NCBI RefSeq assembly: GCF_014633365.1
Contig: NC_068341.1
Span: forward strand, 1,550,001 to 1,614,000
Direction: 5' to 3'
Length of the DNA stretch: 64,000 bases
Source: Diospyros lotus
Taxonomy: Eukaryota; Streptophyta; Magnoliopsida; Ericales; Ebenaceae
Position 1 is the stretch's first letter, and the number at the start of each line of letters is the position of its first letter. The notes under the pieces are model-generated. The model saw only the letters and a list, made by a program, of their open reading frames with translations. It ran no database searches and was not told the origin of the DNA. Positions 614-46,700 of this stretch are shown one piece after another. A program made the translations under genes and the position numbers.

Positions 614-826
614 CTTAAGATTTTCATTTTCAGCCATAAGCTTTTTAACTGTTTCATTATCAATAACAGTGACCTCCTGCACAACCGGAATTTGCCCTGC
701 AGCTTTCTCTTCAATCTCATGTTCATTAATTAGCAATTCTTTGGTTTCTTGAAACTGCAGTTGCATCTCTCGCAAAGCAGACTGCAACTTTTCATTTTCC
801 TTTCTTTTCGCTTCCTCCAGGTCAGC
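614..826 (-). CDS. coiled-coil exon, copy 1, 71 codons
   Basis: Leftmost copy in the window, with acceptor TTTGTTGCAG, donor GTAAGC, phase 0-0. Reads [20 protein letters not shown] and ends LMAENENLK. The sequence further left still resembles the repeat unit, so it may not be the last copy of the array. Confidence 0.88.
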
Positions 827-3800
827 CTGCAACAAACAGACAAGGACAAAAAACAGGGCATTAGCAATTTAGTTGTTATGTTTTCCAAAGCAGTAGAAGA
901 AATGAATTAATTTGGATTCTGAACATTAAATAATAATTTTAAATGCCAAAAGCAAACCCAAAGAGGTAAAACTAAAAGATATATTCATATACCCAGATTC
1001 ATGTTGGTGGATGCAAAACCAAAAAGGGTAAACCAGATCACCATACATCAATACAAGGCACCTATTCTCGGCATCTCTAAGCAAAGTTGACTACATATAA
1101 CTTCTTACTACTCAAAAGTCAGTCAACAATTCTTCACTAAGCTGGTTGTTTAAACATTTTGTTGTTTCATAAATTTTCTTTTCTAGAGAACTTACTAAAG
1201 CTTGCAAAATATGCACAGTAAGTAAAACATCAAATTTTTCGTAAAAAAATTTAAGGTATCACCAAAGAAGAGCTGAAGGGGATGCAATTGCAAGTATACA
1301 GTTTACAGTAATGAACTGTGTACAAAACAGACCGTTATCATGTAATGGAACCCACTCAAGCAGAAGTAAGTGAAAGAATCAAATGAAAAAGCTGAAATAA
1401 CTATGTGCACTTTATTAGTGATGCACAAAAAGTTGCAACAGAAAAAGTTAATTTTCATCATATATATATATAGAGAGAGAGAGACACACGCGCGCGCGCC
1501 CGCGCATAGATGCAATATTGTTACCAGGCTTCAAGCAAGCTTACCTTAAGCTTTTCATTTTCAGCCATAAGCTTATTAATCGTTTCATTATCAGTAACAG
1601 TGACCTCCTGCACGATCAGAACTTGTCCTGCAGCTTTCTCTTCAATCTCATGGTCCTTAATTATCAATTCTTTGGTTTCTTGAAACTGCAGTTGCATCTC
1701 TTGCAAAGCAGACTGCAAGTTCTCTTTTTCCTTTCTTTTTGCTTCCTCCATGTCCGCCTGCAATGAACAAGATAAGGACAAACAACAGGAGGTTAGCAAT
1801 TTAGTTGTTATTTTTTACAAAGCAGTAGAAGATATTATGAATAGGCTTGGATTCTGACACTTAACTTAAAAGGACAAAAGTTTACCCAAAGAGAGAACAA
1901 AAATAAAAGAATATATACATATAGGCCATTCACCCACAAGCTTAAGTAGCAGAATAGACCTTTCTATATATCAAACATGTCAACAATATTTTGACACTTG
2001 TTCTGAGAAAATGCTGGGCATGATGTTGGTGGTTGAAAAACAAGAAATGGTAAAGCAGATCACCACTAAGCTTATTGACAACTTATAACATCTGACTACT
2101 CAATTCTGTCAATAATTATTCACTAAGCTTGTTTGTTTCTTCAAAATTTTTCTTGTATCATAAATTTTATTTTCAAGGTAACTTATTAAATTAAGGTATC
2201 ACCAAAGAAGAGCTAAAGCGGGTGCAATTCCAAGTACACAGTTGGCAGTACTATGAACTGTGTACAAAAAAAGACCATTATTCAATGTGAACATTGTATG
2301 TGCAGATGCTGGGAAAGATGGGAAAACTGTACATGCACTTTACATGTGCTAATAGACAGAAGAAAAAGATTATTTTGCTCAGGAAAAAGAAAAGTAGAAG
2401 ATTTATTTTACAAGATATATATACAGAGAGATAGAGAGAGAGACGATATTGTTACTAGGCTCCAAGCAAGCTGACCTTAAGCTTTTCATTTTCAGCCATA
2501 AGCATATTAATAGTTTCATTATCAATAACAGGAACCTCCTGCATGACCGGAATTTTCTCGGCTGCTTTCTTCACATCCTCAAGTTCCTTAATGAGCAGTT
2601 CCTTAGTTTCTTCAAACTGCAGTTGCATCTCTTGCAAAGCAGACTGCAATTTCTCATTTTCCTTTATTTTTGCTTCCTCCATGTCAGCCTGCAATGAACA
2701 AGATCAGGATAAACAATAGGGTGTTTGCAATATAAGATATGGATAATTTGGGTTCTGAACAGTTAATTTTAAATGACAAGAGTATATTCAAAGGGAAAAA
2801 AATGCAAAAAAAAAACATATATCAGAGGCAATCACCTGTAAGATTCAACACTAGTATAGACCTTTCTATATATCAACCGTTTCATCAATATTTTGGCACT
2901 TGTTCTGAGTAGGCATAATGTTGGTGGTTGCAAAACCAAAAAAATGTTTAGATCACCACACATCAATACAAGGCACCTATTTGCAACATCTCTAACCATT
3001 GCCGATGGCATGTAACATCTGACTACTCAAAATTTTGCCAACCATTCTTCAATAAGTTCATTCATTTCTTAATAATTTTTAGCTGTTTCACAAATTTTCT
3101 TTCCTATAAAACTTACTAAAGCTTGCAAAATTGTCACAGTAAGTAAAACATCTTATGTTTCTTAACAAATTAAGGTATCACAAAATATGAGGTAAAGGGG
3201 ATGCAATGTCATGTACCGAGGCTGTAACGTTTTACTTTGGTGCTATCTTTTACTTTGTTGCTATTCATAGCTATTATTGTAATTTTTGGAGGGATTTAGC
3301 CTGCTGGTAGAAGGTTCCAAGCAGTGCAAGTTGTAAGTAGACCGTTAGGCAACTTGACGGATTCTAGAAGGGACTTGGCAACCATTTTGGCGCCAATCCC
3401 AAGTTGAGGCCGTATAAGAGATCGGCCCAACTCATTGTGAAGGCATGATTTGATAATTGAAATCCGAAATCTCCCTCCTAAACTTCTCATTCTTTCTCTC
3501 TTTCTACTTTTCTCTCTCTATTTGACATTCCCTCCCTTATTCCTACGAATTCTCTCTCGGATCAGAGAGAATTCCCTCTATCAGATCAAGGATCTGACAT
3601 GCAATTCCAAGTACAAAGTTGACAGTACCATGAACTGTGTACAAAAGAGACCGTTATCCTATGTATGGCTCACATGCTCTAAAAGCTCCAGAAGTCAAGA
3701 GGAAATAAGTTTGAAAACCAAATGCAAAAGCTGAAATAACTATAAGTGCACTTTACTAAAGCTGTTTACAAGAAGTTGCAACAGAAAAAGTTCATTTTCA

Positions 3801-6544
3801 TGATATATATACAGAGAAAGAGAGAGGCAATATTGTTATTAGGCTCCAAGCAACCATACCTTAAGCTTTTCATTTTCAGCCAGAAGCTTATTCATCGTTT
3901 CATTATTAATAACACGGACCTCCTGCACAACTGGAATTTGCTCTGCCACTTTCTCTTCAACCTCATGTTCTTTAATGGGCAGTTCTTTGGTTTCTTGAAA
4001 CTGCAATGGCATCTCTTGCAAAGCAGACTGCAAGTTCTCATTTTCCTTTCTTTTTGCTTCCTCCAAGTCAGCCTGTGAGAAACAGAAAAGGACAAAGAGT
4101 TAGAAATTTAGTTGTTATGTTGCACAAAGCAGTAGAAGATATGAATAAAATTAAAAATATGAAAGCAATAAATGCTCAAAGTATAAGCAAAGAGAGAAAA
4201 ATTAAAAATATATACATATGAAGGAATCACCTAGAAGATTCAGCACCAATATAGACCTTTCTATATATTAAATCAACCATTTCAACAATATTTTGGCACT
4301 TGTTCTGAGTCAATACCTATCACGACCAATAAGGGGGTGGGTGACCTGGGTCAAGCCTAATGAACCATAAGACCATTAGGATCAAGGAAACCTCTATGCT
4401 TACCATATCATGAAAGTAGCAAACAGTAACCGATACACTGAACCCATATCCATTTCATGATAATAAACTGAATCAATGTTCATACAATCTTTGCCTGTAC
4501 CAACCAGAGGAAACTGCTAAGCATATCAAAATGAAGAAAATAACTAATGCCCACAAGAACAAACATGGGGCATACAAATACAAAATGACTAAACTAAATT
4601 GAACTACTCAAACTATCTGATGCATCACCTCTGAGGTTGAACTATGATCTAATACACACACACACACACGTAACAAGTACAAGTAAAAATCAGTGAATGG
4701 GCAACATATACCATGACAAAATTGGGACATGCAATATGTACGAGTTTTTATAGAAGAAAGATTTTTTTTTTTCAATCATGCAAGCTTATTTGTCATTTTA
4801 GAACAATAAAAAATTTTCAAGAAATTCTTTCTTTCTTTAATAAAACTATTTTTCTTGTATTTGATAGAAAAACCAATATTTTCAATTTTATGGGAGTACA
4901 CTAAGCATAAATAAATCCACATAACAGTTTTGTCATTGTCCACACAATTATCATCGACCGTGTCAAAGAAATAACCAATCCACGTGTTGGCCAACACACG
5001 GGATCAGCAACACCCTTGCTAACTAGGGTCAGATCAAGGTGCACCAAGGCTAACATCTAATGTTGTTAGCTATAGTATTCTGCTAAATGTCCAAGTATTG
5101 ATCAACAATACTGGTAACTCCCTCCCTCTCTCTCTCTCTCTTTCTCTCTGTATATATACATCCATAAATGTTACTTCATTTGGCAAGATACCTATGCCTA
5201 CATGGTTTTGGTAACATATAGAATTCTATTCTTATATGGTTTTAGTATAGTGTATTTCTATTTTTGCAGATCACCAGACTCAATTTATTTTCTAGAGAAC
5301 TTACAAAAGCTTGCAAAATACTCACAGTAAGTAAAATGTCAAATTTTTCTTATAAAAGGTATCACCAAATAAGAGTAAATGGGCATGCAATTGCAAGTAC
5401 ACAGTTGACAGTACTAGGAACTGTGTAAAAAAGATATCACTATTCAATATGGATTCACATCCTCTAAAAGATTCAGATGTCAATAGGAAAGGTTTACTTA
5501 ACACAAATGCTGTGTACTAAAAGTTGCAACAGAAAAGGTTCACTTAACATGATATATATAGAGAGAGAGAGACAGAGGAAGGGAGGGAGAGACAATATTG
5601 TTACAAGGCTCCAAGAAGCTTAACTTAAGCTTTTCATTTTCGGCCATAAGCTTATTAATTGTTTCATTATCAATGACAGGGACCGCCTGCATGACTGGAA
5701 TTTGCTCTGCAGCTTTCTTCGCATCCTCAAGTTCCTTAATGAGCAGTGCCTTAGTTTCTTCAAACTGCAGTTCCATCTCTTGCAAAGCAGACTGTAATTT
5801 ATTTTTTTCCTTTCTTTCCTCGTCCTCCATGTCAGCCTGCAACAAACAAAGTGTCACAACCCAAGGATATAGAAGTAATTGTTTCATACATGTATTTCCT
5901 CCATGGTTGTACTGTAGACTGCTGTAGTGTTGTACCTTCAGTTTACAGCCTATAAATAGGCTAAGGTAGTTAGAGAATGGATGATTGATGAATGAATTGA
6001 ATTCCGTTCCCTCTCAAATGCTCTCTCCCTCTCTGTTTCTTCTGAATTCTCCCTCAATTCTCTCTGTTTCCGTTCTGATATCTCCCTCCCATTCTACTCT
6101 CCATTCCTGATTTCTTCCATATGTCCATTCTAAACCCTAGGTAAACCCTAGGATCATGACACAAAGTCAGGACAAACAACAGGGTGTTAGCAATATAGTT
6201 GATGTACAGCACAGAGCAGTAGAACATATGGATAATTTGGATTCCGAACACTTAATTTTAAAGGCCAAAAGTATGCCCAAAGACAAGAAAAAGTAAATAT
6301 ATGTACATATATGAGGCAATCACTCACAAGACTCAACACCAGTATAGACAGTTCTATATATCAACCATTTCAACAATATTTTCACACTTGTTTGTATTTG
6401 CAAAATGAAAATTGTTAAAGCAGATCACCGCAAATGAACACAAAGCATCTATTTGTGGCATCTCTAAGCATTATTGATGACATATAACATCTAACAGCTC
6501 ACAATTCTGCGAACCATTCTTCACTAAGTTTGTTTGTTTCTTCA

Positions 6545-6578
<34 letters not shown>

Positions 6579-9500
6579 TCATGATTTTTTTTTTTTTTTT
6601 CTAGAAAACTTACCAAAGCTTGGAAAATTGTCACAGTAAGTAATACATCAAAAGTTGCTTAACAAATTAAGGTATCACCAAAGAAGAGCAAAAGGGCATA
6701 CAATTGCAAGTACACACTTGGCAGTACTAATGACCTGTGACAAAAGAGACCATTGTTCGATATGGACTCACATCCTCTGAAAGATTCAGATATCAATAGG
6801 AACGAAATGAAAAAGCTGGAATAACTGTACTGCACTTTACGAATGCTGTGTACTAAAAGTTGCAACAGAAAAGGTTTATTTAACATGATAAATACACACA
6901 CACATTTAGAGAGAGAGAGAGAGAGAGAAAGTATTGTTACTAGGCTCCAAGAAATCTTACCTTAAGCTTTTCATTTTCAGCCATAAGCTTATAAATTGCT
7001 TCATTATCAATGACAGGGACCTCCTGCATTAGTGGAATTTGCTCTGCAGCTTTCTTCGCATCCTCAAGTTCCTTAATTAGCAGTTCCTTAGTTTCTTCGA
7101 ACTGCAGTTCCATCTCTTGCATCTCCTGCAAAGCAGACTGCAGTTTCTCTTTTTCCTTTCTTTTTGCTTCCTCCATGTCAGCCTGCAACAAAAAAGGTCA
7201 GGACAAACAACAGGGTGTTGGCAATATAGTTGATATATTGCACAAAGCAGTAAAGCATATGGATAATTTGGACTCTGAACACTTAATTTTGAAGGCCAAA
7301 AGTACCCAAGGACAAGAAAAAGTATACATATATGAGGCAATCACTCGCAAGATTCAACACCAGTATATAATGTTCTATATATCAACCATTTCAACAATAT
7401 TTTGGCACTTGTTCTGAGTTAATACCCAGCATCAAGTTCATGGTTGCAAAATGAAAATTGTTAAAGTAGATCACCGCATAGCAATACAAGGCACCTATTT
7501 GCAGCAGCTCTAAGCATTATAGATGACATATACATCTGAGAGCTCACAATTCTGTGAACCAGTCTTCACTAAGCTTGTTTGTTTCTTCATATTCTTTTTC
7601 TGTTTCATGAATTTTCTTTTCTAGAGAACTTATTAACACTTGCGATATAGTTGCAGTAAGTAATACATCAAATATTTCTTAAAAAATTAACGTATCACCA
7701 AAGAAGAGCCAAAGGGGATGCAATTGCAAGTACAAGTTGACAATACTATGAACTGTGTACAAAAGAGACCACCATCTTATATGGAACTCACATGCTCTAA
7801 AAGCTTCAGAAGTCAAGCAGAAATAAGTGGGGAAAAAAAAATCAAATGCAAAAGTTGAAATAACTATAAGTTCACTTTACAAATGTCTTGTACTAAAAGT
7901 TGCAAAAAGAATAGTTCATTTTATAAGAGTGAGAAAGGGGAGCATTGGATTTTTTTACCAGTCTCCAAGCAAGCTCACCTTCAGCTTTTCACTTTCAGCC
8001 ATAAGCTCATCAATAACAGGAATTATCTCTGCAGCTTTCTTTGCAACCTCGCGTTCCTTAATGAGCAGTTCTTTAGTTTCTTGAAACTGCAGCTCCATCT
8101 CTTGCAAAGCAGACTGCAATTTCTCATTTTCCGTTGTCTTTGCTTCTTCTATATCAGCCTTCAACAAACAAGGCCCATACAGACAACAGGGTGTTAGCAA
8201 TTTAGTTGTTAAGTTGCACAAAACAGTACAATACATGGATTAATTTGGATTCTGAACACTAAATTTGAATGCAAAAAGTCTACTCAAAAGAATTAAAACA
8301 ACAAAATATGAGGGAATCACCAGTAAGATTCAACATCAATATAAACCTTCCAATCTGTCGGCCATTTCCACAATATTCAGGCTCTTGTTCTGGGTTAATA
8401 CCCAGCATCATGTCGGTGGTTGCAAAAGCAAAAAAGTAAAAGCAGATCACCACACATCAATAAAAGCCACCTATGTGCAGCATCTTTAAGCACTGTTGAT
8501 GACATATAACATCTGACTACTCAAATTCTGTCATCAATCATCATAACGTTCAAAAGATGCATAAACATGCAAGCTAAAACAATTCCTTATTTACAAGGGA
8601 CATCTGTCATATATCAGACCAACAACGTACCAAGACATTTATCCCACTATGCTGAGTCTGCTATATGAATTCTAGATTTCCATTCATTTCTCTCTATGGC
8701 TTTATCTTTTATAAGGCCCATATAATTAATTTCAACCCTAAGGGCCTTGAACCAAATTATTTTTGGTCTTCCTCTACTTCTTTTTCTACATGCTTGTTCC
8801 ATTGTGTCCCCTCTCCTCATGGGAGCCTCTATTGGTCATATTCTCACTTGGCCAAACCACCTTAATAATGTCTCATGCATCTCATCCTCATTAGAAGCCA
8901 CTCCACTCTTATTTTGAATAACCTCATTTCTAGTTTTATCTTTGTTTGTAAGGTTGAATGTCCATCTTAGCATCTCGTATCGATTACACTCATATTTTGT
9001 ACATGTTGGTGCCTTCTTGTTGAAAAATTTGTGTGTTATAGAACAAAGTTGATATTATAAAAAAAAAAATTCTTTAATGGAATCTTACTATCACATAAAA
9101 TGGCAGATGCACTCTTCCATTTTAACCATCATGCCTTAATTCTATGGGCGACATCCTCATTAATCTTTCCACCTTTTTGGATGATTGATCCAAGATATTT
9201 AAAATGATATTTTCTTGGTAGGACTTGATCTTCCAGTTCTATGATAAAATCATCCACATTACATTTTTACTAAACTTGCATTCCATATATTCGGTTTTCA
9301 CTCTACTTAATTTAAAATCTTTAGATTCTAAACTATTCCTCCATAATTCAATCCTAGTATTCACACCTTCTTTTGTTTCATCCACCAACACAAGGGAGTA
9401 AATATAAACAAGTACTAGCATGTTTAGCTTAGCAATCGTTTAATATTAACAATGCAACACCAACAAGTAGTAACACAACTAGACTACATATTAACAATGC

Positions 9501-12500
9501 ATCACCAATAAAAGATCAGAACAGACTCCAGGTGTTGATCTACTATTGTATTCACATAGATGTTCCAATATAAGTAGACAAGTAGTAACACAATCATACT
9601 ACATATAGCATATTTGTAGAAAAGATCTGACCCTCATGCGTTTCTCTTGCTCTAGCTGCCAGGTCAATTCTTCAACTTGCTTTTCGAGCATAAGTTTGGC
9701 AGCTTGGAGAGCACCAGCTTCTTTAGCAGCCTATGGATAACAAGAAAAGTAAAATCAACATCTAACTACTTCAGGTAACATGCGCATAAGGAAAAGTTAC
9801 TGCACAAGTTAGAAGTTATAGGTTCACAGTTCATTAAGAAAAATTAAATCATAAAGGGAATAAGAATCAAGAATTTTTGTTGCCACTTCATGAGCTAAAG
9901 GAGGCAAAGAAAACGGAAATGTTTTAGCTCAAGATGGTTGTGAACTCCTTCAAAACAGGCTAAAGCCAATACTGCATGACCTTTCTTTCATCCAATAGAA
10001 CCACATGCAAGCTCAGAAACCGTAGGAATGGAACTCTCAATGTCCACAACAAATATAGCCATAAAAACTTGAATCTTTAAAAGAATGTTTCCATATATCA
10101 ATAACTTTAGAAAAGAATAAGAATTAGTTAAGTCATAAGCTTAAATTTTAACTAGATAAGAACACGTAAATCAAGAATGAAAACATCACCATTTTAAGCT
10201 TCCGTAGCTCCTTGCGAGCCACTCTTCCTCTCCAAGCACACTGAGTAACAATTGCTGCTTTTCTTATCCTCAAATAATGAAGACGGGCTAAGTATCGCCG
10301 ACATTGGCTCTGTATGACATATTCCAAGGTCAAATAGGATAAGATCATACCAGAAGTTCAAACCCATGGGTGGACTAATGAAGAATGTAATGTGCCTGTG
10401 TGCATGTGTGTGGTGGATTCCTTATTCTTCTAGGGATAAAGACAATAAGGCTGGAAGATTCTGGAGAAACTATAGCATGTAAACTATAGAAGAAGCAACG
10501 AATGTAGTTAAAATTAAGAACAATCTGATTGAACTGTAACACCAAAAATAAGATAAGAACGAATTCCTTTTTTCCACCTCATAAAAATTTAAAAAAAAAA
10601 AAACACTTTCATCTAAGAGGTCAAACAAACTAGAAAATTAGGGCCTGTTCAGTTTCAGAAAACATTTTCTAATTTCAACTGCAATTTTCTATTGAATGGT
10701 TGAATCTCCAACAAGAGAACAGAAAACTCAATTTTCTAATTTTTTAACTTTATACTATGAATTGGAAAACATCAAAAAAGGTTCTCTGAATTTCTAGAAA
10801 TGAATGCTATTGCTTTTGGAAACATAAAATGTTAGAACATATTTAGTTATAAAATTGAACTTGAAAATTATAAAATGTTTTCTACAACTGAATAGGCCCT
10901 TACGTTTTGTACTTCTCCTTTTTAAAGAAAACCACCCATTTTTGGAATTTCCTTGTTTTCTTGTTCAACTATTCTGACTCATGCTACATCCCCTGTATCC
11001 AAACTAAATCATATAATTGCTTTCTGTTTATAAATTTATCAAGAAAATTAGATACCTATAATGCAAATATCATTTTTTGAACCATAAATTCAGATGTTAG
11101 ATAACCTTAAACACGACTCGTGTACAGGACTTAGCCAGGCATTTATCAAGCTAAAGATCTACACAAAGTTCTCTGGCTTCTGTTCATTTGGTTGCAATCT
11201 ACTAGTTTACTGTTAAGGAGAATATTACTTCTAATTAGGAAGGATAGAGGGAGTAGAGAATAGATGGAGAGTTTATTCAGTTTCTTGTTTTGTATACAGT
11301 TTATTTTCAGCTTCTTACTTAGCTTATGTGGTAGACAGTTTGTTACAAACAGAAAACACAACTAGTGTTCCGTTTGTTACAGACAGTTGGCATGTCTGTT
11401 AGGTTGTTGTGTAACAACCCGTGATCGGGGTTTGGGATTTTCGTGTCGTTGAAGGGGGGTTGTTGATGTTTTGTAGGGTGTAAGAGGCAAGGAGGCAGCA
11501 GCTGTCGACAGGAGGAGGAGGAGTTGTCGACCGTTGATGGCCAAGGGCACTGTCGGTCGACCATTGACGGCCAAGGGCACTGTCGGTCGACAGTTGCCTG
11601 GGAATCTATTGACCGATTGCTGAAGCTATCGACTGAATATGTGAGTCTGTCAACCGTTTGCGACGGGAATGGTCATCCAACTGAGGCAGTGGAGAGTTTC
11701 TAGAAGCAAGGGGCACGTGAGGGGCCTTCTACATCCTTCTAATGCCTATTATGTGTATATAAATGAGTTGTGAGAGGAAGATTTCTCACAAAATAGAGAG
11801 AGAAATCGAGAGAAGGAAAGAGAAGGAGGAAAGAAGAAGGAAAGGAGGAAGAAGAAGGTTGTGGCTGAAGCTGTTGATCAATCTCCATAGCTTTAAGGCA
11901 AGTTCTATATTCTCTTCTTGCTCTTAATTCTTGTGAGAGGCTGGTTTATCACCTCTTGTTGTTGCTTTGTAAGCTCCTCTCCCTTCCATGTTTCGAGAAG
12001 GAAGCCCTCTTCTCTCTTGTTTTGATGAGAGACTAGTTTACTTCATCTTGGTGTTTCTTTTGCAAGTTCTCACCTTCCTTTTGTTTCCAAGTGCAAGTTC
12101 TAATTCTTCTCCTATCCTTATGGCTTGAGCTATGGGATTAGGGTGGACTATTAGAGATAAAACTCCCTGTTTTTGGTAAAAGAGTTCATGTGGAAGGTTA
12201 TGTAAAGATCTTTGTACCCCATCCTTGATTCTTGCTTGTTGTTGTTTAAGCCATTTGGAACTTGAAATAGGGCTTGTTCTACCCTATAATCCTTTGGGAA
12301 TGATGTATTTATTGTTAGGGTTTAGATCGTGCAAGTATTTTGTGGGAAACTTGCATGTTGGAGTTCAATCTCGGGTGGCAAGGCATTCTGTTGGCCAACA
12401 GATGCCTTCAAATTTGTTGACTAGGGTAACCCAAGCATACTGTCGGTCAACAGATGCTTGGCAATCTGTCGACCAACTAGCAAGAAAATGTCGATTGTTC

Positions 12501-15500
12501 GAGTTATTTCTCTATTTCCAAATTTATGTGGTTTCTTGATTGTTCCCCAATTAATTCTACACCTTGAATGGCTGTTTTGGAGTGTAAATAGGCATGTTTG
12601 AGCATGATAATGAGCTAGCATTGGCCCATATGGAGAAATTGGTGATTGAGGGAGTATTACACTTATGTCTTAATTGGGAAGTTTTAGGGGTTTAGATGTG
12701 CATGCATGGGTTTGTATACAAGCCAGAGATTAGGTTGTATAGAGTTATGAGTTGGGAGGTAGAATTCACGGATGTCTTCTTATGATGAGTGGGCAGTTGC
12801 CTTGAGAATTGCTTTGTGAATTTGGTTATGGAAGAGGATGTCTGAGTGTACACCGTGAGAGTAATCATAGTTTTAGAAGAGATAGGAAGAAATGTATGAA
12901 ATCATATACATGTATGCTCTATGTGGTTGATCGTGATTCCAGAAGATAAAAGGTGTGATTATATGAACTGACCTCCCTTCTAGACTGGAGCACCACGACG
13001 ATGAGGCCACTGCACACTTGGCGTGTGGTATCGTAGGCGTGTGTCAACTTGATGGGAGTGAGTGGAGAGCGAACCGAGAGTGCTGCAATGATGAGGCCAC
13101 TGCATACTTGGCATGTGGTATCATAGATGTGTGTCGGTGCCACTGAGCTGAGCTAGTTGAGGACACCACTATGATGAGGTCACTGCATACCTGGCGTGTG
13201 GTATCATAGGTGGGTGCTAGATAACAGGGGACTGTAGAGCGGACTGAGGGCATTGCTATAATGAGGCCATTGCATACTTGGTGTGTGGTATCATAGGCAT
13301 GTGCTAGTGCCGCAGAGTTTGAGAGCATTGTTATGGTGAGGCCATTACATACTTGGTGTGTGGTACCGTACAGGCCCAAAGTGAGTTGCCATGTGATATG
13401 AGTATTGTGTTGTTGCAAGATAATGAGTGTTGTGCTTAAAGCATTATATGGGTTCAGAGACTATATGGTAGCAAGGTTACCGGATTGTGCCTTATCCATG
13501 CTATGGTAGGACCTTGTTATTTGTGTGGATTATATTAATCTATGTTATGACTCTATCTGTGATATTCCATGTTACAATCCTACCCATGTTTCTCCATGCT
13601 ACGATTCTACCATATATTGTCTGTTATTGCTTACTGAGTCTCCATTATGATATATCTCATGCTCCATTTCGTTATATTATACTTGTTGAGCCTTGCGGCT
13701 CATTCTTTCTCTTTACATCATTCCAGGTGCAGGTAAAGCGAAGAATGAGAAGGGTCCTATCGAGACAGGATCTGTTAGGTTAGATATGTACAAAGCTCAC
13801 CCGAATAAAAGGTCTTGGGGGCGTTTGTTGGTTTGAGACATGCTAGTGGCTGTATCTTTGTTATTTTGGCTTGTTGCATTCCCCTTGAGACAGCCTAACA
13901 GAATGTAATGTTAACACTTATGTTGTTCTATATGAAAAGAAAATAATGGATTCATTGTTGTTTGTTGTTAGTAGTATGGATGATCTTGATTGAATTTTAC
14001 TCTGTTTCCATCTTGCGGGGAATTTCCCTCGAAATTCCTATGCTAGCAGGACTTCCAGAGGCGGGCCTTCACAATTTGGTAACAGAGCCTTTATATTGGA
14101 CTTTCAAGTCTTTACATGTTGAATAATAGATAGCATTATATAAACTCACTGCTTTTGCTATAATATTCATTCAATTCATTATATACAGTTTTGATTCTCT
14201 CTCTCCATTTTCTTTTAATTTTCATTTTCTCTCTAGCTCTTACATTTCCTGCATCTTGATCTCTTTTGGTTTAACACATATTTAAACATGGAGATATCAA
14301 TGTTCAGCATAGAAAAATTAAAAAATCCACATTTTAAAATGGTCTTGTTCAGAGTGTTCATAATCCCAAGGCTCTCAATAGCCAAAATGTATCAAGAAAA
14401 CAGTAGCAATCTCACAACTATAAGAAAATGAGTTTCTGAATTGTTGTAAAACATTGTATTAGTATATGATACATCAAAAGGAAAAGAGAATATGGTGTGG
14501 TCTATTTATGTGTGGTCTCACTACTTGCTATTGCTTCACCAGTTTGTCATCCCTAAGCCATCTTGACAATCTTAGTACCAGAAGTTACAAAGGAGTAACA
14601 AGAAGTATCAACCAGGCTTGGTTTGACAATTTGATAGCTTTTGGCAAATTCATACTCCCTCATAATCTTAAGTAGATCTGAGCACAAAAGTTAAAACATG
14701 AACCACTATACCTCCTAGATATTTTGAAAGTAATACACCACCTAGATATTGAATCTTCTTCAGCAATTGATTAGGATTTCAGATTTCAGTAAATAAACCA
14801 GCTAGTTGTTGATTCTTCATCACCTAAATAAAACCACAAATATACCTGGATAAGAGTTGAAGCTTTATTTTTCTTTCTGCAGTGAAGCTCAATGCGAGCA
14901 GCCATTCCACGCATGCCTGTTTGAATTTTAACAGCAGAAGAGTGCAACATTTTATATGCCTTTCTAGAAATATATGCACGCATGTCTGCCTGGATCCTCA
15001 CACTAGCAGCTTCCCTCCTCATACACTCATAGCAACAGCGTGCAGTTTGTCCTAAAAGCAGCCCATAAAATAGATGCAGTAGGTTAAAAGTGAAATTCAG
15101 ATTGCTGGCAAGAAAATGTTAAAGGTCACAATCAACATTCATCAGAAAATATTAAGTTGAAATCTACAGTCATGCATGATAATAGAATAAAAATGATACC
15201 TCTGCATACAGCTTGAATCTGTATGGCAGACAAGCGCAGTGCAATAAAAAATTTTCGTCCAAAGTATGAACGAACTTTTCTTTGGATAATACAGGCAGAT
15301 CTCCCTAAAACCTCAGTCCTCTGAGCATCTAGTTCTGCCATCTGACCAGCTCTGAGAAACACTTTACTTCTGCCAACCTACACAAACCTAGAACCAATTA
15401 GTGGAAACTTTTCAAGAAAGTACAGAGTAAAAAGAAAACAATTAACAAACAAATATCCCTGCTTTCCATTATGCTAATCAAATACATTGTAAAAATTTGA

Positions 15501-34768: not shown

Positions 34769-37700
34769 TCCTCTTTGAAATTAGTGAAATATGTTTTGGT
34801 GGTGTCCAAGGACGTAGGCCAAATTCGTAGAACCTCGTTAATTTCTGGTGTTCTATTTATTTTTATATTCAATATCGGGTATTATTTATGGTGAGGTTGA
34901 TTTTGGGGAAAATAACCCGATTTTCCCAACATAGATTGTAATGTAGTATCGAATCAAGAGGTTAAATGATGGGCCTGTTTGATGTACAAAATAGGAGAAT
35001 GCATAAAGATGTATGAAGATGAAAATGGATAGGCCAGGCTGACATATGAAATATATGATTACATATGTGTATATATAGATATAAAGATTTATCAATTAAA
35101 GTTAGTTACATTTTTCCTTCTTGTAAATATTTTGGATAAAGAAACTTTTCTAGGATTGATCAAGGAAATGTTTTTTGCAATACGAAGCTGCACGGGTGGA
35201 CAAAGTGACATGAAATGTCTTAGATATATGTAATATACATGTGAAGAGAGAGGGAGAGAGGTGGACCAGCTTCTTGAGAGGGAAAGGAGAAAGAAAAAGT
35301 TGAGAGGGAAGACATTAAATTAAAAAGTTCGTGGGACCAAATTAATATGGGTGGCAGGATTTCTGTCTTTTTCATAACATCTAATATGTGATTCTGAATG
35401 AGAAAAATGGTATTTCTTTTTTCTTTTTTTCATGATAATATCACACAGTATCCTATCTGGTAGACGAACAAGAAATTCAGGCACTCTATCTGCTTGACGA
35501 TTTCAGGATTACAGGAATCCGATGGCAAGAGACCCACAACAAACTACTTCTAACAAGAGCAAGTGCATAAAACAAGGAATCCTCATGACATCAGACATTC
35601 ATGAACTTGCATTATTATCACTTAATCAGGAGAACCAACAATGCTAACTTTTTATGCGCAGAAGAAGCAGCATCAATGTCATTTGATACCAGTTTAATCA
35701 ACTCCAAGACTATGAAATTTACCTGATAACCTTTAATGGCCACCTTGTCCAAAAGCTTCTTGGAAGCAGTGACCTCATCACAGCTATCATTAAGTCAGTA
35801 ATGAACAAATACAGTACTGAAAATTTACTGCCAAAGAAACACTAATGGACATTAGAAAGGTTAATGCAACTACCTTCCATCCAAAACATCAGGAGCAAGG
35901 ATGCCAAAGCGACTTATAAATTCATCAAATTTTCTCCTAGTGGGATATCCAGCACAACTGATCCTAATTGCCTCCATGACTCCCTGGAGTAAGATAAATA
36001 TCACTTCCACAGATATGCAGATGCAACACATATTATTAGCTTAACATAACTAAATGGCCTAGGCATCAACTCACCCCACAACGCAGTTGTTGTAATACAT
36101 TATAATTCTCAAAAATTGAAGGCTTCAGAAGATTATTTGGTTTTACGCATCGAACATAATGTGGCTCTGTTGCACCAAGCGTTTCAAGTAATGCTTGCAA
36201 TTGTTGCTGCATGCAGTAGATGACAGGAACACAGCTTAGAAGCAAAACAAGCATAGAGTTTGAATCAACCAAATGTTCTAGGACAAAAGGAGACCTTGAA
36301 CCGAGAACCTATTGACGAAAATTTTGATGTTTTTGAAGATTCCTCAGGCAAGAGTGGGAACAAGCCTGACACAAATGAGCACCTTGAAGCATTCAAGAGT
36401 GCTTGATGCTCTGCAATAACATAATCTTTGTTCTTATCCAGAAAGAGCTCAGTTTGATAAGTGACCTGAAATAAGAACTTCCCTTAAGTACCTGTTAAGG
36501 TTCTGGTTTTTTACACAACCTATTTGCTTATCTACCACTATGAGAACTTTAATGAACAAAAAAACATACATCACCAGCATAATGACAAATAGTGAAGTCA
36601 GTTGGGGACAATTTTGGCTTGCGGAACCGTTTATGATCTTTGAATGTCTGGTATAACTTTTGTGCAAATGTTTGATGTGTTGATCTTGGAAACATGCTAC
36701 AAAAAGGTAAGCAAATCAGCATGTCAACGAACAAAACTGCGTGGCTTATAATTTGAGTGGCTTAATTTGCCAATGTTGTAAAGTACAGAGAATAATGGCT
36801 ACAGGATTCTGTTTTCAAACTCTTATACATACCAGGCTTCATCCAGAAGCGCAATGACGCCACCAGGTTTCTGAAAGAAATAGAAAGATGTATTAGAATT
36901 ATAAAATTCACTACCAAGAAGAGTAGAATAATTCTAGTTTCCTGTATAGAGGCAGATGGAAAGCAAAATAAGATATAACATCCTTTGAAGCCTACACCAG
37001 AAAAGCCAAACAAAAATCATGACAAAGGGCATCCAAAGTACTACACAGGAAGAAGGAGGAACAAATAGAAACATTGAATCTCTAATTTTCATATATCATC
37101 ACAATAAAATGTCCAGACATCAAAAGTACATTGCATTGCATTCTATTATGAGGTCACTGTGTCAGAATTGTTCAGAATTGTTTGTTCAATTGTCCTCTTG
37201 CAGCAATTTAAATGACTATGATACAGAAATTCAGTGGATGTGAAGAGTAACAGATAGGATTGTTATAGGTAAATTTCTTTTTTTGTTAACTGGGTAAAAT
37301 TTTCTAAGAGAACTGTCACAACCCCAAGGATATAATAGTAATTGTAGTTTAATTGCAGTTATTATTTACAGTCAATGCCAGTCCTGAATTTTTTAGGGCC
37401 CACAGCAAAAGTAAAAATTAGGCCCCCATATATATATTTAAACTTAGTGATGAACTCACTTTTATTTTTCAACCAAGATCTAACATGTCCAAATTAACTA
37501 AAAATTTAACATTCAAGCCAAATAAATTGTATCGATTCAAACTTCAATATATTAAAATTTAGAATAAAAGGCTACAATATATAAACAAGATAAATACTTA
37601 TAACAATTCAATAAGTTTTTTTTCATCCAGCAAAATAAATTCTTTTTCATCGGACCAAAAAAAAAAAAAAAAATTCTCTACATGCTGAATAGCTGATGCA

Positions 37701-40700
37701 AAACAACATCAATCTATTTGAAATCCCTTTGCATCCTTAGCATTAGCAACCAGCAAAACAAAAAATGTCTTTACATGCTCAATAGCCAAAGCAAACTGCA
37801 ACAGCCTACTTGAATCTCTTTGCATCCTCAGCAACCAGCAAAACAAAAATGCATTTTCTTTTTCTTTTTTGACTTCCAAATGGGTGTTTCTTACTAAGCA
37901 TTGTTACTTGAAAACAGAAACAATACAAGGAAAGCCAATGCAATTTTAATACTTCAAAGAATAAACAAAAAACAACATAACCTGGAATTTGAGAAACCCC
38001 CTTTGTGAAATCCACCTCCACAGAAAGTTCACAAGGATCGAATTTTAAATCAACGAACTTGAAGAATGAAAAGTTTGCCCAGCACTAACGGAAGGATCAG
38101 CTTACTTAGAATTTTAAATCAACGGACTTCAGCGGACTTGAAGTCCGCCCACCTGTAAGTAATTTTAAATCAACGGACTTCAACAGACTTGAAGTCCGCC
38201 CAGCACTGCACTAAGCGGACTTCAAGTCCACCCAGCATTTCTGGGCATTCTTCTTCTTGAGACAAGGTCTTTTTTATTTTTTAAATATTAAATCAATGAA
38301 TAATTATAATAATATAATATAATACTTACTAAAAATATTTTGGGCCCCTGAATAATGGGCCCAGGGCAGTTGCACTGACTGCCCCTGTTCAGGGCCGAGC
38401 CTGTTTACAGTTAGGAGCGGTAATTTGTACTGGAGTATTATTTACAATTATGAAGTAGTGGAGAAGTAGTGGAGTAATGGTAACCTCTCTGTAAAATTGT
38501 TGGATGGCTTTATATATAAAGCTATATCATAGTGCCGAGATAATTAATTAATTATCAAGTTATTTGAAGTCTCTCTCATTTTCTCCCTATTTTTTTCCCT
38601 GTTTCTCCCTACTTTCTATTTGTTTCCCCCTCATTTCTCTCTAATACTCCCTCTATTCTTCTAAATTCTCTCTCCCTTTCTGTTCTCTCTCTCTCTCTCT
38701 ATTTTTTCCAATTTCCACTCAAAGCCCTAGGTTAAACCTAGATCCCTGACATTTGGTATCAAAGCAATAGTTCCTTGGCCTCAGATCTAGCTTTTTTTGG
38801 AATTTCTCCATTGTTGATGGTTACTAGACACTTGAAGCTTCTATAGATAGATTTGAAAGGAAACTGGACAAACTCATGATGATGGCCAAAATGTATCAGG
38901 TTAGTCTTCTAGCTTAATTACTTTCTAAGGAATATCCTTATCCAATTATTCAACAAAAGAGACCAATCCCTATGATAGTTGGAGATGCACTCCTGATAGG
39001 AAATGACGTGATCCATAGAACTCCGCAAGTCAACTTGCTAGAGGACCTTCTATCAAAGGAGAAGGATGAACAAATTCTGGAAGATAATGAGTTTCCCTTG
39101 AAAGAAGATGAACAATCTGAATTAGTAAAAAACATTGATTCATTAGATATTTCAATTATAAATCATGTCGGAGATAAATCATTAGATATTCCAGTTATAA
39201 ATCATGTTGGATATGAAAGTTGCAATGAAGGGATTTTTCAAGCATCCAATGAGACGTATGCTCTTCGCATCTACTCTAGGCTAGATGGAGGTCAGGTTTC
39301 AGCCATTGTGGAACCTGCAGAACATTCTCACCTCTTCCTATGCAAGCCGGATGCCAAGAAAGGAATGGCAATTGCCGGAAAAATCAATGTGGCACCATTG
39401 GAGGAGATATCTGTTGAAGATGAACCTATGGTGTACAATAGCAAGCTGGAAGCGAAAGATGCGTTTAAGGAAAAAGCTCAGGAAGAGCAAAGGAGGATGC
39501 AGAAAGAACAATTAAAGCAGACTGAACAGAAAAAACATGATGGGTTGCAAAAGAAGATGGATCAGATAGTGAAAACAAGGATTGGGCTTGGGGACAAGAA
39601 ATCTTTTAAGGGGGAGGGAATGTCATGACCCCAAGGATATAATAGTAAATATAATAGTAATTGCAGTTATAATTTATAGTTATGGAGTAGTAGAGGAGTG
39701 GTAATCGCTTGATATGTTGGTTAGCTTTATATATAAAGCCATAACCTACAGTGCCGAGTTTATGAATGAATTGTCAAGAAGTTAATGAAGTCTCTCATTT
39801 CTCCCTATTATTCTCTTTATTTCTCCCTACTTTCTATCAATTTCTCCCTCATTTCTGTCTAATTCTCCCTATTATTATGTCTACTTCTCCCTCAATTCCA
39901 ATTCTATCTTCAAAGGAAACATTAGTTAGGACTAGGGTCTTGACAAGAACATATTATGAATAGTTAGTAAATATGCACCACAAGTTATGTCAGGATATGT
40001 GATAAAGACAATTCTGGGAGAATCTAGGAGGGTTGGTGCAAGGAATACCTGGAGGAGAGAAGACCATTATAGAAGGTGACTTACATTGTCATGTGGATAG
40101 AGGTACAAAGATGTGAACTTTGAAATTTTATCTCCAAAATAATGCAATAGAGATAATCAAGGGTGAAAAAAATATCTTCAAAGCTGACTCTAACTGAAAA
40201 TCCCACTACCCACCTTCCAGATAGATGGTGTGCACTAGTTAGATAACCAAGTATTTGCATTTCCATCATCTTTGTGGGTTTCAACGAGTGGGCTCCCTTT
40301 TGAAGCAATAGCCTTGGTATGTCAAAGATCTAGATAAGTTATTCAAAGTAGGCACTGGTCTTTTCCAGCAAAATACTGGAATCATTGTAGTCCAAATACT
40401 TGTAAGCCATTTACTAAGAAAGCAAGGGGGAGAATAACATGTTTGAAATTCATGGGCATTGGGCAATAGGCTTAGGACTGAGTCATTAGGTTGGATATTA
40501 AGTTTCAAGGCATGACTTCTTAGGATGTCCGCAAATGTTGTTTGTTGATGATACTTTTATCGTTTGTAACCCCCAGGAGGAGTCAGTGAGATTTATCAGA
40601 GGCATCCTTTTATGCTTTGAGGTTGTTTTGAGGTGGAAAGTTAATCTGCTTTAAGAGTGAGATTACTCCCGATTAGTGAGGGAGTTAATGTTGGTAGTTC

Positions 40701-43700
40701 ACTGGTCATTTTGGGGTATGAAGTGAGTTCTCTCCCCACTCCATATCTAGGCCTCCCCTCTGGGGCTTCTTTTAAGTCCAAATCTGTTTGGAATGAGGTT
40801 ATCCAAAGAACTGAGGCACGACTAGCTTCATGAAAAAGTCAGTACCTCTCTCAAGGTGGAAGAGTTACCCATATGATGTCCTTGTTTAATATCATTGCTC
40901 CTACAGCAGCTCATCTTGAAAAAATATATACAGCTTTCATGTGCAGTGGTATAAGAGACAAGTTTAAGTTTTGCCATCCCGCCCAGGGAAAAGGTGTTAC
41001 AGATTACAAAGTTAATATAGTTTAACATAGCCCTTCTAGATAAGTGGTTGTGGTTCCAGGGCAGAGATGAAGGTTACAGAATAAGGTCAAAGTTGATAAG
41101 TACAATATTGAGTAGAGAGGTAGGTCTTTGGAAGGGAACTGTCAAAGTCTTATACCCTTTTTGCTAGTTTTAGGTTTATACGGTATAGGTAAGAGGGTCT
41201 CTTTTGGCTTGATAACTGGTGTGAACACATTGGCAGACATTAGAACCATATATCAATGAGCGTTAAAAAGGTCATCTCTGGTAAAAGAAAAATTAACCAT
41301 TTAGAGCAGTAATAGAGAAACAAAGAAATCTTCAACATCAGATAAAGAAAATCCAGCTCGGAGTGATAAAAGTTACTCTTAAGATCACTAAGGACACAAC
41401 AACCAAATTGATACCATATAACAGGAGTTACAAGAAATGAAGAGAAAGAAACTTAAAGCTGTAATCTAAACACAAACAGAAGCAAACCTTTTCAATGAGA
41501 TCAAGAACATCTTGATTGTCAACAAATTCTATATAACTCCAGTCAATTTCTTCCTTCGTATATTCTTCTTGCTCCATCTTGAAAACATGCTACCAAAATA
41601 ATTTAGACACATTATGGTCAGTTAAGAGGGAATTTCAAGGATGCCTACATACACAAAGGAGATAAAAAGGCATCCCCAGTGCACAAGAACCTGATTGAAA
41701 TGCTGCTGCAGTTTCTCATTTGTTAGATTGATGCAGAACTGCTCAAAGCTGCAAGGTTGCAATTAAGACATTTATGAAACCTGAATAAGCAAGAATGTTC
41801 CAAATATTCAAATCTGCAAAGCAGCGGTCTAACACTACTTTAACATATTTCATATTACACGAACACATTATATCATAAAAAATATGTTCAGAATGAAGAT
41901 CTCCTTCCACCAGACCCCTATAGAGAAAACACATAAAGAGGTTTTCCCTAAACAAAATCAAAAGAGCATTCTATGCATATGCAACCGAGGTCCTTGTGGC
42001 ATTTCCAAAAATAAAAATAAAAAAAAAAAAGCAAAAGACACCAATTCATTAAACCAACTTAAACTGATACCACGACCACAAGAATTTCACACCAGCTAAT
42101 AAAATATCTCCATTCAATAAGTAATGGGCTTTCATGCAGCACCCTGCAAAAATTAACCTCTGAAAATGATGAAATCAAAAGCATACCGCTTAAGCACCTG
42201 TTTGTCTTGAAACTCTCAAATCCATAGATATCTAGAACCCCGATTACGAACTTTGAACTGGGATCTTGACCGATAGAATTATTTATCTTGTTCACAAGCC
42301 TGTACCAAGAAACAAGATAGACCTTTAAGAAACAGCACAAACCACATATAATAATGAAGAATTAGAATACAAAATCCATCATTCACATTATGTTACCAAA
42401 ACTCCAGAAGCTTAGGTCCAATAAGCCCTCCAGAATAAATATTTCAACCCCTTGTAGACCTTCAAGGACTTCTATTAAATGTTTGTTCAATTACCCTTTT
42501 ACTTTCAAAAGCAATGCAGTTTTTACTCCCCAATATACGAAAACCAGCTTTCACCCTGCCACTAGTAAAAGAGAAGTCCCTATTGATAGTCAAAGTAGTT
42601 TTTATTTGATTGGTAATAGCCATTTGCAAGAAGCCAAAAAACTTGCACCCGTGAAAGCACACATTAAGAAGTAGAAAATTTTTTGGTAGCATTACATTGC
42701 AAGGTAGAAAAGTTCTGATAGCATGCTCAATTAAACAGGTAATTTACTCCCTGATTATGGATCCAATACTTAAAATTTACACCTATAAAGTAAAAATACC
42801 ATTAGTCTCCTATGTCTGTTTGAATAACCTTAGTTAATTTTGATAAGAATAAATATGATTGTTATAAACTCCTCTGAAAAACTCCGCCTGGGGATGTTAT
42901 CCACTGCCAGTCCCAAGTCCGGATAAAGGAGGAGGGTTGTGTTAGGTAGCCGACAGCCAACGTAAAACTTAGTCGGATCCAAAACATGAACTCTCGACAA
43001 ATTATGAAAAATCGTTTGGGCGTGGGCGTAACCCTTCATAGCGATGCACTACACTGCCCCCGTGTAGTGACAAGTGAGCTAGGGCCGCTGCATCGGCGCC
43101 CGGATGTAGTGATAAATGAGCAAGGGTTCCCACATTTGCTTGGACGGATGTGGGTAAAGAAGCTAGTCCAAAATCAAAATCAAAATCAAAATCAAAACCA
43201 AAATCAAAATCAAAATCAAAACCAAAACCAAAATCAAAATCAAAAACAAAATCAAATTCAAAGTCAAGGCCAGAAACAAAATCAAATCCAAAGTCAAGGC
43301 CAAAAACAAAATCATAGATTAAGGATTGGGTCATGGAACATAGGAACATTAACAGGCAAAGCTATAGAAGTGGTGGATGTGATGATTAGGAGAAAAATTA
43401 ATATTATGTGCCTTCAAGAGACGAGATGGGTAGGGAAAAAAGCAAAAACTTTATCAGAAGCTGGATATAAAATATGGTACACAGGAACCGATCGAGCAAA
43501 AAATGGAGTGGGGATTATTATGGATAAAAGCTTAACAGATGAGGTAGTGGATGTAAAGAGAATAGGGGATAGGATTATTATGGTGAAGATTAGTCTAGGA
43601 AGAATGACTATGAATATCTTTAGTACATATGCACCACAAGCGGGGTTAGGTGATGAGATAAAAGCAAAATTCTGGGAGGACCTAGAGGGACTCATACAAA

Positions 43701-46700
43701 TGATACCAAGAGGAGAGAAAGTGATTATAGGAGGTGACTTAAATGGGCACGTGGGTAGAGACTGAAACGGATATAGAGGTACACGGAGGGTATGGATTCG
43801 GGGAAATTAATAATGAGGGTAAATCTATTCTAGATTTTGCTATGGCATATGGGCTCATTATAACCAATACTAGGTTCAAAAACCGGGACGAACACTTAAT
43901 CACATATAAAAATATCACCTCAAGCACCCAAATAGATTACTTCCTCATGAGACAAGAGGATCAGTTATGTTGTAGGAATTGTAAGGTGATACCGGGAGAG
44001 TGTTTGACTACTCAACATAGACTTCTAGTACTTGACGTCCAAGTAAGAAATTGGAAAAGAAAAAATCACATAAAACAAAATCCAAGAATCAGGTGGTGGA
44101 ATTTAAAAGGGGAGAAACAACTAATCTTCAAAGAAAAATTAAGGGGTAGAAGGGAATGGAATGGAGAAAGACAGACAAACTAAATGTGGAAAGAAATGGC
44201 TAATGCTCTAAGAAGCACGGCAAAGGTAGTCCTTGGAGAGACAAATGGTAGAGCCCCTAACCTTAAGGAGTTTTGGTGGTGGAATGAAGAGGTACAATTG
44301 AAAATTAAAAATAAGAAAACTTGCTATAAGGCGGTATATTAATGCAACAATGAAGAAAATCAAAAAAATTATAAAGAAGCAAAAAAGGCAACAAAAAAAG
44401 CTGTTAGTGAAGCAAGGTTAAAAGCATATGAGAATCTATATAAACAACTTGATACAAAAGATGGAGAAAGGGATATATATAAATTAGCTAAAGCAAGAGA
44501 AAGAAAAACACGAGATTTAAATCAAGTGAAATGCATAAAAGATGACAATCAAAATGTTTTAGTAAATGAGGGAGCGATTAAGGAGAGATGGAAGGAGTAT
44601 TTCACAAAATTATTCAATGATGGTGGTGACACAAGAGTTAGGTTGGGACATCTTAGTAACTCCGAAGGGAATGTGAGCTACACATTCTATCGACGGATAA
44701 GTTCAAATGAAATAAGGCAAGCATTAAAAAAGATGAAAAATCGTAAGGCAGTAGGACCAGATAATATACCAATAGAAGCATGGAAATGCATGGGAGAAGA
44801 GGGCATCTCCTGACTAACGCAACTATTTAACGCCATCCTTAAATCAAAAAAGATGCCAAATGAGTGGAGGAAGAGTACTTTGGTTCCTATATATAAGAAC
44901 AAAGGAAATGTTCAAAACTGTGAAAATTATAGAGGAATTAAGTTAATGAGTCATACCATGAAACTCTGGGAGAGAGTAATAGAGCAGAGGCTCAGAAAGG
45001 AAACAAAGGTATCAAAAAATCAGTTTGGTTTCATGCCTGGTAGGTCAACAATGGAAGCTATATATTTACTGAGGCGTCTAATGGAAAGGTATCGAGATCA
45101 TCAGAAGGACCTACATATGGTGTTTATAGATCTAGAAAAGGCCTATGATAGAGTCCCTAGAGAAGTATTATGGAGGGTTTTAGAGAAGAAATGAGTCAAA
45201 ATAGCCTATATACAAGCCCTTAAGGACATGTATCATGGTGTAGAGACAAGGGTCAGAACATGCGGAGGGGATACTGAACCACTTACAACTACAATAGGAC
45301 TGCATCAAGGTTCTACACTAAGTCCATACTTATTTGCCCTAGTAATGGATGAACTCACTAAAGATATTCAGACAGATGTGCCATGGTGTATGCTATTTGC
45401 AAACGACATAGTGTTGGTGGATGAAACAAAAGAATGAGTGAACACTAAGCTTGAGTTGTGGAGAAACAATTTAGAATCTAAGGGATTTAAATTAAGTAGA
45501 AAGAAAACAGAATATATGGAATGCAAATTTAGTAAAAATGCAAGAGTGGATGATGTTATAATAAAATTAGAAGACCAAATCTTACAAAGAAAAGACCATT
45601 TTCGATATTTGGGATCAGTGATTCAAAAAGATGGAGAAATCCATGAGGATGTCGCACATAGAATTAAGGCAGGTTGGCTAAAATGGAGAAATGCATCGGG
45701 GGTGTTATGTGATGGTAAAATCCCATTAAAATTGAAAGGAAAATTTTATAGGACAGCTATAAGACCAGTCTTGCTGTATGGCTCAGAATGTTGGGCAGTC
45801 AAATACCAGCATGAGCAAAAGACGAGTGTAGCGGAGATGAGGATGTTAAGATGGATGTGCGGACATACAAGAAAGGATAAAATTAGAAATGAAGTTATTC
45901 GTAATAAGGTAGGAGTAGTGCCAATCGAGGAGAAGATGAGAGAGACTAGACTAAGATGGTTTGGTCATGTGAGAAGGAGACTAAGAGACGCTCCTGTGAG
46001 GAGAGTTGATGAAATGAAACAATTAGTCACAAAAAGAGGTAGAGGGAGACCCAAGAAGACTTTGGGAGAGACATTAAAATTTGATATGAAATATATGGAT
46101 CTAAATGAGGATATGACAAAAGACAGAAATACATGGAAGTCTAAAATTCATGTAGCCGACCCCACATAGTGGGATAAAGGCTGGATATGTTGTTGTTGTT
46201 GTTGTTGTTGTTATAAACTCCTCTGAATGAATGAAATTCAACGGAATCTAGATTGGCCATATCTTCATCCATAGGATCCTAACAGTCTGGATCAATCATG
46301 ATTTTATTTCCAACTGAACTCGTCATTTTCAAATGATATCCACAAGGGACAGACGGTTACTTAATATGGAATCAGATCTCTGATTCCAAAAAGTCTTGGG
46401 TTCAAGTCTCAATACATGTGCTTGTCCCCCATCATTCATGTATTTTGCACTCTTGTTCCACGTGCTACTGCACCTTAAGTTTAATATGTGTTATTTATGT
46501 GAATAAATGTTGGAAAGACAGATATAAATATTGGTCCCCTTTCTAAATAGCTTAAGCTTTCAGGACAAATGACATATAGCAATTAATGCAGTACCAAAAC
46601 TTTCATTCCAAGAGACTTGAGTTGAAGTATTATTATTGTGTTTGCTACTCATTGTTCATTATGTATACTCATGTTCTGTGTACATAGGTGCACCTTCATT

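Follow-up and report, generated by a model that had tools for sequence, protein, structure and literature searches.

Eight tandem copies of a coil exon in a class XI myosin gene of Diospyros lotus and the probable serial splicing of seven of them into a longer, jointed tail

The 64,000-nucleotide stretch of Diospyros lotus DNA analyzed here (the window; NC_068341.1, C4:1550001-1614000) carries part of a myosin gene, within which one exon of the coiled-coil region is repeated in a tandem array. Seven copies of the exon were located within the window, spanning positions 614-8158 on the minus strand, and all copies were designated by letters (A-H) in the order of transcription. Copy A (7979..8158), the first transcribed, has 60 codons and lacks 11 residues around the hinge; copy B (6961..7182) has 74 codons, three residues more than the 71-codon copies; and copies C (5624..5836), D (3860..4072), E (2476..2688), F (1545..1757) and G (614..826) have 71 codons each. 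A previous inspection of the letters alone (the sequence-only reading) had described seven homologous exons in tandem, all of phase 0-0, and had counted the copies as "at least seven". The seven exons and their phases were confirmed, and a DNA search of the same genome with copy G revealed an eighth, intact copy (H) at C4:1548062-1548274, corresponding to window positions of about -1938 to -1726. Copy H lies 1.7 kb past the window start, so the array extends beyond the window. All eight copies start and end in phase 0 with lengths that are multiples of three, they are pairwise 82-92% identical (8-18% different), and the introns between them measure 718-2,339 bases.

The AG and GT borders were present in seven of the eight copies (six of the seven within the window), and an internal stop codon was found in none of the eight. 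The borders varied in detail, with the acceptor AAG at copy A and the donors GTATGG and GTCAGC at copies D and E, respectively. Copy C, whose reading frame is also open, was the sole copy without a GT donor, having TT in its place. In addition, two ACAAAGT repeats (5846-5852 and 6161-6167) enclose an insertion of 308 bp (5853..6160) beside the acceptor of copy C, starting 17 bases upstream of the exon; with these 7-bp direct repeats, the insertion resembles a transposable element. Because of the TT donor and the insertion beside the acceptor, copy C is probably no longer an exon, its open frame notwithstanding. The six complete copies counted by the sequence-only reading, together with the 418 residues that they would encode (60 + 74 + 4 × 71), were thus borne out for the window, and every combination of copies would keep the frame, as had also been proposed.

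The gene on both sides of the array was then modeled. Upstream, 22 exons on the minus strand (54425 to 9632) were joined in phase through 21 GT-AG junctions, in a model that was guided by an Arabidopsis XI-K sequence and in which GC donors were allowed and GT was the best choice every time. These exons comprise 18 motor-domain exons (35723..54425; from 54425-54303 to 35783-35723), two neck exons (14846..15377; 15377-15200 and 15051-14846), a further IQ/neck exon (10190..10309) and the exon preceding the array (9632..9730; AAKEAGALQ...EQEKRMR), which ends in phase 0. The start of the first motor exon was placed by similarity; 12 bases further upstream there is an in-frame ATG. Downstream of copy H, a coil exon begins at C4:1547609, running downwards, and 14 exons with 13 in-phase junctions were followed to a stop codon just below C4:1512731, only GT-AG junctions being tried and one junction offering two near-equal choices. 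The relatives to which the exons of the gene align carry PF00063, PF00612 and PF01843 (motor, IQ and DIL). By sequence, the gene looks like an intact class XI myosin, in which a motor, an IQ neck, a coil and a globular tail of the DIL type are predicted. Its predicted length is about 1,915 residues (909 + 489 + 513 residues and MQNL) if copies A, B, D, E, F, G and H are all included, and about 1,497 with a single 71-residue copy. In a tree of motor domains, the gene was placed beside those of Camellia and Actinidia (support 0.72), and the enclosing clade (support 0.89) includes P0078, which is named myosin XI B. As judged from this placement, the gene is of the XI-B/11A type.

A single copy of the exon is the norm, as the sequence-only reading had supposed. 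Each of seven other loci in the same genome gave one match to the coil exon, and when 292 proteins were fetched from databases, 232 contained one unit (above 8 bits), 59 contained two or more and one contained none. Two of the three protein searches used the array as the query, so that expanded proteins were favored among the 292, and each search covered the best 120 matches within limited length ranges. One of the paralogous loci (C6:40062361-40062681) contains a single copy of the exon that is identical in sequence to P0235, "myosin-6-like [Diospyros lotus]". IPVMQE-like repeats within its hinge have enlarged this exon from 71 to 107 codons. For P0235 itself (746 amino acids), IQ and DIL domains are listed and a motor domain is not; a motor exon was not found in the 30 kb upstream of the exon, in a weak search that also missed the neck exons of P0235. 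The paralogue is possibly a headless myosin.

The array itself consists of a repeated unit of the exon and about 0.7 kb of intron. When the introns were compared, AB, EF and FG were fully covered by other introns of the array, and stretches absent from the other array introns were found in BC (317 bases), CD (961), DE (381) and GH (1,813). In a tree of 24 exon segments, all eight copies grouped together (support 0.77), with the single exons of Nyssa, the C6 paralogue, Rhododendron and Camellia as neighbors; within the array, copy A split first, followed by the groups B/C/E and D/F/G/H. Because the eight copies group together, the array seems, on this tree, to have arisen within the D. lotus lineage. 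Tandem repeats are easily misassembled, and the copies might in principle have been created by the assembly. This is hardly credible here, given that the exon copies differ by 8-18%, that four of the seven inter-copy introns have stretches of their own and that the gene model runs on at both sides of the array. A second alternative is that the expansion is real and dead, a single copy being used while the others decay neutrally. The state of copy C speaks for such decay, as does the fact that no protein of the gene was found among the listed database matches. The sequence-only reading had named a dN/dS near 1 across the copies as the sign of dead copies; the ratio of the nonsynonymous to the synonymous proportion of differences (pN/pS), pooled over 28 pairs of copies, was instead 0.36 (0.35 without copy C). 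When neutral evolution was simulated 500 times along the tree of the copies themselves, a value as low as 0.36 was never reached (mean 0.80, minimum 0.48), and at least one copy acquired a stop codon in 499 of the runs, compared with none among the eight real copies. Gap events per 1000 aligned bases amounted to 51-57 in the flanking introns and 8 in the exons, a six- to sevenfold difference in a permissive DNA alignment from which the upstream flank of copy C was left out owing to the insertion. The coding sequence of the copies is conserved beyond the neutral expectation and, the AG and GT borders also being kept in seven of the eight copies, a dead expansion is very unlikely. Dead copies were thus rejected by the neutral simulation, with the exception of copy C.

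How the intact copies are joined in the transcript was considered next. We propose that tandem duplication of one 71-codon coil exon with about 0.7 kb of intron produced the eight copies, that copies A, B, D, E, F, G and H, whose splice sites are intact, would be spliced in series and that copy C would be skipped; the motor would then have about 1,915 residues and a jointed, seven-unit tail rod (probability about 0.72). Constitutive, serial inclusion of these seven copies is likely from the sequence, since the frame, the intron lengths and the lack of a docking or selector signal in a coarse test favor it. It is also favored by a precedent in grasses and by the multi-unit chains predicted in other plants. 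In the grass myosins 11E1 and 11E2, clusters of 10 and 14 similar coil exons have been described, and two Festuca complementary DNAs (cDNAs) over the first few 11E exons support constitutive splicing (Muhlhausen and Kollmar 2013, PMC3850447). Alternatively, the intact copies might be cassettes whose inclusion is regulated, giving motors with one to seven units. Any subset of the copies would remain in frame, given phase 0-0 and lengths in multiples of three, the border sequences vary (at copies A, D and E), and splice variants are known in maize myosin genes, those shown for ZmXI-2 being intron retention and truncated proteins (PMC3935558). Nothing in the sequence points to regulation, however, and the grass precedent indicates constitutive splicing (PMC3850447), so that variable inclusion is rather unlikely. 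The sequence-only reading had also raised a Dscam-like choice of one copy, which tandem homologous exons of near-equal length and the same phase would allow, and for which the two groups formed by the copies other than A (B/C/E and D/F/G/H) might be cited. The requisite machinery was not apparent. Docking/selector pairing common to at least six of the seven inter-copy introns was not above shuffles in a coarse 16-mer test, with 25 of 30 and 21 of 30 shuffles equalling the real sequence for the two candidate docking introns (30 shuffles each), and mutually exclusive choice was rejected as a candidate on this result. Inter-copy introns of 718-2,339 bases provide no steric mechanism, exclusion by frame shift is impossible for copies that are all multiples of three, and several units occur in one predicted chain in other plants; the mutually exclusive use of the copies is very unlikely.

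The shape of the repeated unit was predicted as well. An AlphaFold2 model from the seven window copies showed, for each unit, a helix at residues 2-43, a break at 44-56, usually containing proline, and a second helix at 57-70; the mean predicted local distance difference test score (pLDDT) was 76, with 53 in the block of the break, and the predicted template modeling score (pTM) was 0.40. Each unit is accordingly predicted by the model as a 42-residue helix, a break and a 14-residue helix able to continue into the next copy, and the rod would be a chain of helices of about 57 residues with hinges, jointed rather than one continuous coil. The sequence-only reading had proposed that use of all the complete copies would give a much longer coiled coil, which by this model would need amending to a jointed one. 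A helix rises by 0.15 nm per residue, from which the six extra units would add at most some 50-60 nm. Working as a series of short, hinged rods, the added units would set the cargo-binding tail farther, and more flexibly, from the heads on actin, and a greater reach from actin to cargo may be inferred from the longer tail. The hinges would still let the tail fold back onto the head. MYA2 (Arabidopsis myosin 2), for comparison, is regulated by its own globular tail (PMC8873201). A search for solved structures related to copy G returned none that were convincing (two matches, best E 0.48).

Several observations weigh against serial inclusion of conserved copies and the rod derived from it. No transcript or protein of this locus was among the matches listed in the three protein searches (best 120 each), although the lists did include P0235, the C6 paralogue, and P0047, a different myosin of D. 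lotus. This absence could come from low expression, from a gap in the annotation or from a protein length that the searches did not cover. The acceptor of copy A is AAG, and the repeat-bearing proteins of other plants are, to judge by their names, gene predictions. With regard to selection, the alignment that gave fewer gaps in the exons also gave 4.7 frame-breaking gap events per 1000 bases in them (43-45 in the introns), which are probably alignment artefacts, since every exon is open. The neutral simulation begins at the consensus and overshoots the observed divergence (0.177 versus 0.145), and the NG86 method used for pN/pS disregards transition bias. Finally, when the heptad register across the eight real junctions was evaluated with a home-made score, the result was mixed: the continuous register scored best at two of the eight, in one case only as a tie, and at the other six a shift of 3 did; among all 72 pairings of copies, 64 favored the shift of 3, an exchange of the a and d positions. 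In Arabidopsis, the myosins of pollen include XI-B and XI-2 (PMC10346980), so that pollen would be a place to seek transcripts of the gene.

The array was compared with the known systems. Like the grass 11E1 and 11E2 clusters, it consists of neighboring coil exons in a class XI myosin gene that resemble one another and share phase and borders, and the grass clusters, too, appeared mutually exclusive by their splice pattern (PMC3850447). The grass genes differ in being of subtype 11E, in monocots and with 10 or 14 exons, whereas the D. lotus gene is an XI-B/11A-like gene of a eudicot with eight; a maize table equates 11E with XI-K, and two Myo11A genes with XI-B (PMC3935558). For the grass clusters, the authors found no support for four of the exons having arisen by duplication from their neighbors (PMC3850447), whereas the D. 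lotus copies group (0.77) as a local expansion would. The neighbors of this group in the tree of 24 exon segments, namely the single exons from Nyssa, Rhododendron, Camellia and the C6 paralogue, also speak for an origin apparently independent of the grass clusters. The same paper gives one sentence to long insertions in some 11A myosins, which are probably of the same subtype as the D. lotus gene and lie perhaps in the same stretch of the tail; its section 8 gives no anatomy of them, whereas many can be broken down here into repeats of the 71-residue segment whose period depends on the lineage. Dscam-type arrays (PMC6071210, PMC1397879) share the tandem, homologous exons of the same phase and differ in that no sign of RNA pairing (by the coarse 16-mer test) or of another mechanism of exclusion was found in the D. 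lotus array, for which serial inclusion is expected. MYA2 (XI-2) shares the motor, IQ neck, coil, globular tail and the same 71-residue segment (PMC8873201), but one unit was found in 30 of the 31 sampled proteins of its clade, including P0047 of D. lotus. What is new is the eudicot, XI-B/11A-type and apparently independent array; tandem coil-exon clusters were known from grass myosin XI. Among Creative Commons-licensed papers, no literature on this gene in D. lotus was found beyond the grass precedent, nor any description of the recurrence, with differing units, in one group of myosins.

Such recurrence was observed among the fetched proteins. A repeat at a fixed distance (at least one 50-residue window with at least 50% identity) was present in 45 of the 59 multi-unit proteins, and none was found in the other 14. 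The period was 71 residues in Protea, 85-87 in Reevesia and Diplodiscus, 90 in Mangifera, 61 in Acer, 42 in Cuscuta and Ipomoea, 41 in Rhododendron, 40 in Catharanthus, 47 and 32 in Hibiscus, 22 in Gossypium, 25 in Bauhinia, Nelumbo and Cynara, 32 in Asimina, 18 in Clitoria, and 83 and 51 in Zostera. Because the repeat unit differs by lineage (18-90 residues), these sequences suggest many independent expansions.

The expanded proteins were then placed in the motor-domain tree, which excludes the coil and in which most of the sampled eudicot proteins fell into two clades. In the XI-B-type clade, 23 of the 39 sampled proteins were expanded (22 and the gene of the window), compared with one of 31 (Pistacia) in the clade with P0098, named Arabidopsis myosin 2 (the MYA2 clade). 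These fractions describe the sample only, which was non-random, 28 expanded and 62 single-copy proteins having been picked from the first 184 matches with isoforms and sister species included. After re-rooting, the support of the MYA2 clade was 0.05 and that of its XI-B sister 0.89, and the split between the two is weak because of the former value. P0113 (Dipteronia), one of the 22, has three unit matches and no fixed period. Repeat-bearing proteins of Magnolia, Protea, Telopea and Zostera lay outside both clades, and expanded proteins of Rhododendron, Sesamum, Datura, Cynara, Clitoria, Chenopodium, Drosera and Asimina, among others, were not placed in the tree. P0121 (Lupinus angustifolius, 1786 amino acids), picked as expanded by its length and later given a unit count below two, lay outside both clades and was not counted. 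Its neck-region score was the highest among the listed matches, with an identity of just 57%, and its basal place in the tree is odd; perhaps it represents a duplicated neck or a faulty gene model.

A wider interpretation is offered tentatively, as one that we consider somewhat less probable than its opposite: the eudicot XI-B/11A myosin would be a motor of evolvable tail length, in which the segment was multiplied independently, in units of 18-90 residues and, in D. lotus, as whole exons, while MYA2 nearly always kept one. If this is true, XI-B/11A myosins would have hinged tails up to several hundred residues longer, and tail reach would be a trait under repeated selection in plant myosins. 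This would suggest a contrast within a pair of related myosins, the tail staying fixed in one and being free to lengthen many times in the other. The proteins would offer a natural series of one motor with one to about eight coil units, on which the effects of tail length and flexibility on cargo transport and autoinhibition could be tested.

Further features of the gene were noted. Past the window start and before the DIL domain, an exon of 25 codons (75 bases) is likewise duplicated in tandem, at C4:1546916-1546990 and C4:1546724-1546798; the two versions read EPQSIDTAKK... and EPQNVAAAKK..., and each is flanked by AG and GT. The 20-kb intron at 15378-35722 contains pieces of Copia-type retrotransposons on both strands (in six of its open reading frames), with the domains Pol_BBD, gag_pre-integrs, SH3_retrovirus, Retrotran_gag_2 and RVT_2. 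In another intron, an open reading frame on the plus strand (42986-43762) was found to encode an endonuclease/exonuclease/phosphatase domain (PF03372, E 3.6e-08).

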